DNA of 32,685 bases from Clostridium sp. GTDB lineage: Bacteria; Bacillota; Clostridia; Clostridiales; Clostridiaceae. The stretch covers positions 1-32,685 of the forward strand of contig DAOUPR010000003.1 in the NCBI GenBank assembly GCA_030626065.1, in the 5' to 3' direction. The notes beneath the pieces were generated by a model. That model had not been told where the DNA came from. It saw only the letters and a list, made by a program, of their open reading frames with translations, and did no database searches. Numbering within the stretch: the first letter of the stretch is position 1; the number at the start of each line of letters is the position of its first letter. The translations under genes were made by a program, and so were the position numbers. This document shows, piece by piece, positions 10,338-23,437 of this stretch.

Positions 10338-11329
10338 TTGACTTAAAAAATAAAATACTATGCAAGGGCCCCAAAATAGTTGCTATTGGTGGTGGTACAG
10401 GACTATCTACAATATTAAGGGGTATTAAGGAATATACGTCTAATATCACAGCAATTGTTACGATGGGGGATGATGGTGGAGGGTCTGGTGTGTTAAGACA
10501 AGACCTTAAGATGCTTCCGCCAGGAGATATACGAAATTGTATAGTAGCATTAGCAGAAACTGAGCCCTTGATGAAAGAACTTTTGCAGTATAGATTTAAA
10601 GATGGAAAATTAAAAGATCAGAGTTTTGGTAATTTGTTTTTAGCAGCTATGGATGGCATATCGGATAATTTTCAGGAAGCTGTACAGAAAATGAGCTCAG
10701 TATTAGCTGTTACAGGTAAGGTTCTTCCAGTAACTTTAGAGGATATGGTATTGAAAGCAGAATTAGAAAATGGAAATATTATTTTAGGAGAATCAATAAT
10801 TCCAAAGGAAGTAATTAAACAAAAGAGTAAAGTTAAGAAACTTTATATAGAACCGTATGAGGCTAAAGCTTTAGAGGAATCAATACAAGCTATATTGGAA
10901 GCTGATGCAATAATTTTAGGCCCAGGAAGTCTTTATACAAGTATAATACCTAATCTCCTAGTAAAAGATATTGTAGAGTCAATATCTATTGCTAAAGGAG
11001 CTAAAATATATATAGCAAATGTGATGACTCAGCCAGGAGAAACAGATGATTATACATTAGAAGATCATTTAAGGGCATTGTATAATCACGCTAATTCGAA
11101 TATAATTGATTATGTTTTAATAAATAGTAATCAGGTGGGACAAGATGTAAGAAATAAATATTCAAAAGAAAAATCAATACCTATTAAATATGATAAAAAA
11201 TCATGTGAAGAGTTTGATGTTGAATATGTCGAAGGTGATATTGCATCTGTTGAGAATAACTTGATAAGGCACGATTCATATAAATTAGCAAGTTTAATAA
11301 TAGATATTATTGATAACAAGAAAAGATAA
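10334..11329 (+). CDS. yvcK: YvcK-family gluconeogenesis factor
   Basis: [43 protein letters not shown] overlaps the rapZ stop. Confidence 0.96.
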
Positions 11330-21637: not shown

Positions 21638-22120
21638 ATGAAAATTGCAATTATTTATCACAGTGAATCAGGTAACACAGAGAAAGCAGCAGTTCTTGTT
21701 GCTAAAGGTGCGGAGAAAGTTGAAGATGTTGAAACAAAATGTATGTCAATTAATGATGTTGATGAAGAATTTGTTAATGAAGCAAAAGTTGTATTCTTTG
21801 GAACACCTACTTATGCAGGAACATATTCTTGGCAAATGAAAAAATGGCTTGACACTTGTAAAATTAAATTAGCTGGAAAAGTAGGTTGCGTATTTGCAAC
21901 AGAAAACTTTATAGGTGGCGGAGCAGATAATGGTGAATTAGCACTTATAAGTGAATTATTAGTTAAAGGAATGTTTACTTATTCAGTTGGAGCTAGTGAA
22001 GGACAACCATACACTCACTTTGGATCAGTACTTATAAAAGATGGAAGTGAAGATCAAAAGGAAAGAGTAGAAATATTTGCTGAAAGAGTTGCTAGAAAAG
22101 TAAAAGAAATATTTAAGTAA
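21638..22120 (+). CDS. Flavodoxin-family protein
   Basis: FMN-phosphate loop YHSESGNTEKAA, TPTYAGTYSWQMKKWLD, ATENFIGGGADNG. Confidence 0.9.
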   Translation: MKIAIIYHSESGNTEKAAVLVAKGAEKVEDVETKCMSINDVDEEFVNEAKVVFFGTPTYAGTYSWQMKKWLDTCKIKLAGKVGCVFATENFIGGGADNGELALISELLVKGMFTYSVGASEGQPYTHFGSVLIKDGSEDQKERVEIFAERVARKVKEIFK

Positions 22121-22221
22121 TTAAATTTATGGAGAGGGGAAGTATATAAGACTTATGATACAAATATGAATTTGATATAAAGTAAGGTGATTAACATTTT
22201 AGAAACATTTTTAACACCTAC

Positions 22222-22249
22222 TTGTCACATAACTAGAGTATTATATAGT
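22222..22249 (+). promoter_or_regulatory. Predicted sigma-A-type promoter of the candidate sRNA
   Basis: TTGTCA (22222-22227), 16-nt spacer, TATAGT (22244-22249). Confidence 0.6.
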
Positions 22250-22255
22250 TAATAG

Positions 22256-22336
22256 ATAAATAAAACTAACTTATTCCCCCCCTAAGATAAGTTTAGAAGT
22301 TAAACCCATACTCATTGGAGTGTGGGTTTATTTTTG
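22256..22336 (+). ncRNA. Candidate small RNA with C-rich hairpin loop and Rho-independent terminator
   Basis: Stem aacttat/ataagtt (22268-22274/22287-22293) with loop containing C7 (22276-22282). Terminator stem taaacccatactc-attg-gagtgtgggttta (one G-U) followed by ttttt. Start is inferred from the promoter. Confidence 0.55.
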
Positions 22337-22401
22337 AGTTATAATAGGTTACTTTAAGCTGGTTGTACAGAATGAGATGTAGATAGGTTTGTTGTTTTTG
22401 T

Positions 22402-23223
22402 CTATGAATAATTACTTACATACCAGTCAATAATCTTCCTTGCGATACTATGTTCATCGGGGAGGATTGGAAAATTATCTGGAGTGAACCAATCAGCATG
22501 AGCAATTTCAACGCCATCAGTTTTTATTTCTCCAGAATCGTAGTCAGCAACAAATCCAAGCATTAATGAATTAGGAAATGGCCAAGGTTGGCTATTAAAA
22601 TATCTGATATTTTTAACTTTTAAACCAACTTCTTCTTGAACTTCACGATGAACAGTTTCTTCTAAGTTCTCACCTAGTTCAACAAATCCAGCGATAATAC
22701 TATATAATCCTTCAGGAAAGTTATTGTTATGAGCTAAAAGAATTTTTTTGTCTTTAATAATTGCAACAATAATTGCGGGAGAAGTTTGTGGAAATAATAA
22801 ATTATTACATTTTGGACAACTCTTTGATTTGTCTGGATTCATTGGTTTGAATTTTGTTCCACACACACCACAGTATTGATGCTTTCTGCTCCAGTTTAAT
22901 AATTGATAAGCTTGGACTGCTATAGGAAATATTTTTTGCTTGCAGAAATTTCTACTACAATCCATGAAATTTTTAAAAATATAATTTTGTGGTAATACTA
23001 AATTAGTTTCAAGATCAATTACATAAAAACTTTTCCCATTATACTCACAGATATAAAAGCCATTAAGTTCAGACAAGATATTAGTTTTGAAAGTATTTTC
23101 GTCAGGAAGAGTTAATGAGGTTTCATTTTCTTGAATTAATAATTCATTCTTTCTAAATATTAAGAAAGAATAAGAACTATTTTTGTTTTCTAATAAATCA
23201 GTTTTGTTTGTCATTTTATTCAC
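22402..23223 (-). CDS. nudC: NAD+/NADH pyrophosphatase NudC-like Nudix hydrolase
   Basis: Zinc ribbon CGVCGTKFKPMNPDKSKSCPKC and Nudix box GFVELGENLEETVHREVQEEVGL. Confidence 0.92.
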   Translation of the reverse strand: MNKMTNKTDLLENKNSSYSFLIFRKNELLIQENETSLTLPDENTFKTNILSELNGFYICEYNGKSFYVIDLETNLVLPQNYIFKNFMDCSRNFCKQKIFPIAVQAYQLLNWSRKHQYCGVCGTKFKPMNPDKSKSCPKCNNLLFPQTSPAIIVAIIKDKKILLAHNNNFPEGLYSIIAGFVELGENLEETVHREVQEEVGLKVKNIRYFNSQPWPFPNSLMLGFVADYDSGEIKTDGVEIAHADWFTPDNFPILPDEHSIARKIIDWYVSNYS

Positions 23224-23437
23224 TCCTAAACTTATTGATAAAAGTAAAAAAACTATATCAATATCTTTTTAATTTTAGCACAGTAGGGGGGATTATAATA
23301 TATAAAAAAGAAAAAATACATTTAGTTATTGATTAATAAATTTTTAGGTATCGATATAGTAGTTAGAGATTTTAAGTTATAATATTAAGTATGATAAATA
23401 GATTGAGAAAAATTATTAACTTATAGGAGAATGTTTT

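Follow-up and report, generated by a model that had tools for sequence, protein, structure and literature searches.

Between a flavodoxin gene and a convergent nudC-like gene, the window (the whole stretch of clostridial DNA that was analyzed, 32,685 nt) carries a hairpin with seven consecutive cytosines in its loop, just ahead of a terminator stem. The question raised by this locus is whether the element is simply the 3' end of the flavodoxin mRNA or also the body of a small regulatory RNA (sRNA). The sequence feature at 22222–22335 is real and unusual, and plausibly either a C-loop sRNA or a 3' UTR that could act as one; it is ordinary in kind and undecided as a gene. Our preferred reading, to which we assign a probability of roughly 0.42, is that the flavodoxin transcription unit ends in the C7 element, which probably doubles as an approximately 80-nt sRNA that would block Shine-Dalgarno (SD) sites.

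Features of the flavodoxin–nudC gap

Inspection of the sequence confirmed the positions that an earlier note on this DNA had given for a promoter-like pair of hexamers, a hairpin with CCCCCCC in its loop, and a 13-bp terminator stem with a T tract, as well as their placement in the gap between flavodoxin and the convergent nudC gene (Table 1).

Table 1. Coordinates of the features in and around the flavodoxin–nudC gap (window numbering)
Feature	Position	Strand	Remarks
Flavodoxin gene	21638–22120	+	Flavodoxin_1, 4.7e-10
Intergenic gap, flavodoxin/nudC	22121–22401		
Sigma-70-like promoter candidate, TTGTCA-N16-TATAGT	22222–22249	+	10/12 match; weak
Candidate short transcript, ~80 nt	22256–22338	+	Start inferred from the -10 box
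C7 hairpin, AACTTATT-CCCCCCCTAA-GATAAGTT	22268–22293	+	8-bp stem AACUUAUU/GAUAAGUU; 10-nt loop CCCCCCCUAA
C7 tract, proposed seed against G-rich SD sites	22276–22282	+	Predicted unpaired
Terminator, TAAACCCATACTC-ATTG-GAGTGTGGGTTTA	22301–22330	+	13 pairs; then TTTTT, 22331–22335
nudC-like NUDIX gene	22402–23223	-	Convergent flank, outside the RNA

The 83-nt RNA was predicted to fold at -25.5 kcal/mol, with a z-score of -5.5 against shuffled sequences that is for the most part due to the terminator. When the first hairpin was folded alone, its stability was modest (z-score, -1.9), and 8 of 200 shuffles were equally good. The CCCCCCCUAA loop was predicted to be unpaired in the minimum-energy fold.

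The host genome has a GC content of 29%. With a C content of 13–15%, the chance of a C7 run on one strand of the gap was calculated to be approximately 2–4 per 10,000, and about 23 separate C7 runs were counted in the 2.85-Mb genome. Twenty-one other C7 runs were inspected; at least five of them were the visible complement of G7-type SD sites (for example, with the complement AGGGGGGG...ATG), and none resembled a C7 loop that precedes a terminator. Terminator statistics were obtained from 101 sequences, which comprise 837 kb of the 2.85-Mb genome and contain 141 terminators. Within these 837 kb, no hairpin with a loop of four or more Cs was found within 60 nt upstream of any other of the 141 terminators. 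In another genome (G139), a hairpin UAUUAUU-CCCCC-AAUAAUAG lies immediately ahead of a terminator (L202:1974–2047, minus strand), just after a substrate-binding-protein-like gene; it repeats the C-loop layout in an unrelated 3' UTR.

Terminator, promoter match, and the probable end of the flavodoxin mRNA

The terminator at 22301–22335 is solid, and it was the sole terminator-like site found after flavodoxin on the plus strand. As there was no second such site, the flavodoxin mRNA most likely ends there, and the hairpin would be at least part of its 3' UTR. A near-identical terminator (97% over 32 nt) was found on contig C235 at 11247–11278 of the minus strand (L038:1748–1779), where it is located downstream of an oligoendopeptidase (pepF)-like gene and is not accompanied by the C7 hairpin. 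The promoter pair TTGTCA-N16-TATAGT put forward in the earlier note is present, but such matches were no better than chance before terminators. A match of at least 10/12 at 25–100 nt upstream was found for 8 of the 141 terminators (5.7%), compared with 4.3% of random positions; therefore, the promoter match adds almost nothing. The claim of an independent transcript of approximately 80 nt was not supported, since the promoter match is at the background level and no other terminator was found after flavodoxin, so that the hairpin may belong to the 3' UTR. A separate RNA of this size, whether started at the candidate promoter or released by cleavage, is unproven.

The same two results, the lone terminator and the background frequency of the promoter match, argue for a plain explanation in which the locus is merely the flavodoxin 3' UTR with its terminator, the C7 hairpin is incidental or stabilizing, and the promoter match arose by chance. 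We regard this explanation as a serious one, with odds somewhat below even. The weak energy of the upstream hairpin and the lack of conservation at the family level are consistent with it, whereas the C7 loop, exceptional at 29% GC and unique among the 141 terminators, is not readily accounted for. The distance from the stop codon also speaks against it: the terminator stem of the window stands 180 nt after the flavodoxin stop, compared with at most about 110 nt for the terminator-like stems of flavodoxin relatives in genus g3 (L144 and L145) and genus g5 (L146). The inverted repeats could alternatively act in both directions, as a terminator common to the two genes and without any regulatory RNA, and the convergence of the genes favors such an arrangement, as does the lack of another candidate in the interval from the stem to the nudC stop. 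However, no T tract follows the stem on the minus strand, and the terminator search gave no minus-strand terminator there; we consider a shared terminator the least likely of all the explanations weighed here.

In the fold of the long 3' UTR, GGAGAGGGG/GGAGAGGGGAAG (22130–22141), located just after the flavodoxin stop, was predicted to pair with the C7 hairpin (22272–22296). According to this model, the pairing could hide the C7 loop in a read-through transcript; it was not clearly beyond the shuffled sequences, of which 26 of 500 and 79 of 500 were as good.

Complementarity to ribosome-binding sites and a proposed working

The loop had been described as complementary to G-rich SD regions, and the search of start regions bore this out. 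The seed UUCCCCCCCUAAG matched 33 start regions at -14 kcal/mol or better, compared with 5 control stretches from the interior of those genes. A run of at least five Gs was present in 54 of the 623 start regions in the analyzed part of the genome (837 kb of 2.85 Mb), and a run of at least six in twelve. Since G-rich SD sites would pair with any C tract, the target match is unspecific. Long G runs are frequent in the ribosome-binding sites of this genome and were also seen at L269, L273, and L307; in the window, a G6 run at 23286–23291 has no obvious start codon after it.

The strongest seed matches included L307 (flavodoxin/4Fe-4S protein), L236 (FAD subunit, molybdopterin dehydrogenase), and L268, a large 4Fe-4S oxidoreductase-like protein as judged from its cysteine motifs. 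Two of the nine genes with 4Fe-4S motifs were among the 17 strongest matches (p = 0.02, uncorrected). With these nine motif-positive genes, tests at two chosen cut-offs gave p-values of 0.02 and 0.01 for a bias toward Fe-S proteins, but a rank test was null (p = 0.97). The cut-off tests suggest such a bias as an exploratory lead only.

In the preferred reading, an RNA of approximately 80 nt would be transcribed from a weak promoter of its own or arise when the flavodoxin mRNA is processed. Its hairpin would keep the seven Cs unpaired, and the exposed Cs could pair with SD sites of five to nine Gs, so that ribosome binding would be blocked. The terminator stem would shield the 3' end, and Hfq, the gene for which is present in the genome, might assist. 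This SD-blocking mechanism is proposed from the anatomy of the element and by analogy; a separate transcript, in vivo pairing, and targets of any kind are likewise inferred. With respect to the trans-acting regulator envisaged in the earlier note, the anatomy, the complementarity of the loop, and the presence of an Hfq gene were in agreement with it, but neither an independent transcript nor conservation was supported.

The analogy is with sRNAs that act through exposed cytosines. IsrR of Staphylococcus aureus, which belongs to the iron-sparing response, acts against SD sites through C-rich loops, one of which has 4–7 Cs, and FsrA of Bacillus subtilis also binds SD sites through a C-rich motif (PMC9410917). 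IsrR resembles the window RNA in its C-rich hairpin loops and intrinsic terminator, and its host, like that of the window, is AT-rich with G-rich stretches that are mostly SD sites. IsrR is, however, 174 nt long, with three hairpins, three C-rich regions, and Fur boxes, whereas the window RNA would be approximately 80 nt with one C-rich loop, and no Fur-type box resembling TGATAATNATTATCA (up to 3 mismatches) was found near 22222. No sequence or synteny link to FsrA was seen. Listeria LhrC (RF00616) likewise presents C-rich unpaired stretches against SD sites; it was no match to the window (18.5 bits compared with a gathering score of 110), and no Rfam family reached its gathering threshold with the window RNA. 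Two features of the trans-acting sRNAs with C-rich loops (FsrA, IsrR, and RoxS/RsaE), namely an unpaired C-rich loop and an intrinsic terminator with a U tract, were found in the element. By this analogy, the best reading is a C-loop sRNA embedded in a 3' UTR with a working like that of FsrA or IsrR, which is plausible but unproven; such an RNA would belong to a kind that is known already.

If transcribed, the element would provide a simple case of one C7 loop directed at ribosome-binding sites that are unusually rich in G in its own genome. Flavodoxin in other bacteria replaces ferredoxin under iron shortage, and the position of a transcribed element next to flavodoxin would suggest a testable role in iron sparing for an anaerobe.

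Search for relatives of the element and a CCC-motif RNA family of Clostridiaceae

No convincing DNA relative of the element was found in 208 genomes of the family, all from other genera. DNA matches in 58 relatives and the 208 family genomes were due to chance or were terminator-like only, and the best foreign match of the second DNA search (L049) lay inside a helicase gene. Plasmids and viral contigs gave no match to the element. The nudC relatives in the family were mostly less than 50% identical, and a NudC search of genome contigs returned distant organisms only; in the nudC relatives examined, neither flavodoxin nor the C7 hairpin was found downstream of nudC. The 3' flanks of flavodoxin relatives contained no C run in those flanks that were read in the right orientation, with several minus-strand loci left out. 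Since sRNAs change fast and these relatives are distant, the missing conservation counts neither for nor against the RNA.

A search with a covariance model (R1) built on the window RNA gave a weak match to an intergenic RNA that is conserved in genus g18. A second model (R2), built from four g18 copies, matched 45 of the 208 family genomes at 54 bits or more, in genera g18 and g27. The members of this CCC-motif family (L319–L363; for example, L319:1501–1631 and L326:1501–1624, both on the minus strand) are approximately 120–137 nt long, with three hairpins and unpaired CCC motifs.

The window RNA might be a divergent and relocated member of the CCC-motif family, which was reached from the window model. 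Family models built without the window RNA matched it at 38.4 and 39.9 bits, and the latter was the best score in the 825 kb scanned of the host genome, 12 bits above the next (27.8 bits). The window RNA and the family (R2/R3) also appear alike in having UUAUUCCC in the loop and, directly after the hairpin, a terminator stem of the AACC type. However, the window RNA lacks the 5' GCCCAUACC of the family, with ACACCUACU at best in the alignment, as well as its paired first hairpin, in which several pairs are broken, and the AAACCCCACA CCCC linker. Taken alone, the sequence of the window hairpin did no better than chance, with equally good scores for 806 of 3000 random segments, its locus has other neighbors, and no such RNA was found beside the relative of the family's neighbor gene in the window's own genome. 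In addition, the family was picked for its resemblance to the window, and the E-value is therefore flattered. We consider membership unlikely and do not claim it. Less likely still is a specific descent in which a CCC-motif RNA was relocated and shortened, lost its 5' half, had its loop grown to a C7 that matches G5–G9 sites, and became tied to flavodoxin with a bias toward Fe-S targets.

Apart from its relation to the window, the strongly covarying CCC-motif family looks like an undescribed conserved sRNA and is more broadly useful than the element in the window. In 27 of 32 pairs, both sides had changed, and 96% of cells were paired, compared with 25–44% when the partners were slid; these covariation figures are somewhat favored by an alignment that was fitted to the structure. 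No Rfam 15 family reached its gathering threshold with the CCC-motif RNA, and it was not found in the literature on a limited search. The family contains the near-invariant stretches GCCCAUACC, AACCCCACA, and UUCCCUUUC, and a TATAAT-like box lies upstream of most copies. Genes for an M23 peptidase, a short membrane protein, and a hisE-like protein, named by reading the sequences, recur as its neighbors.
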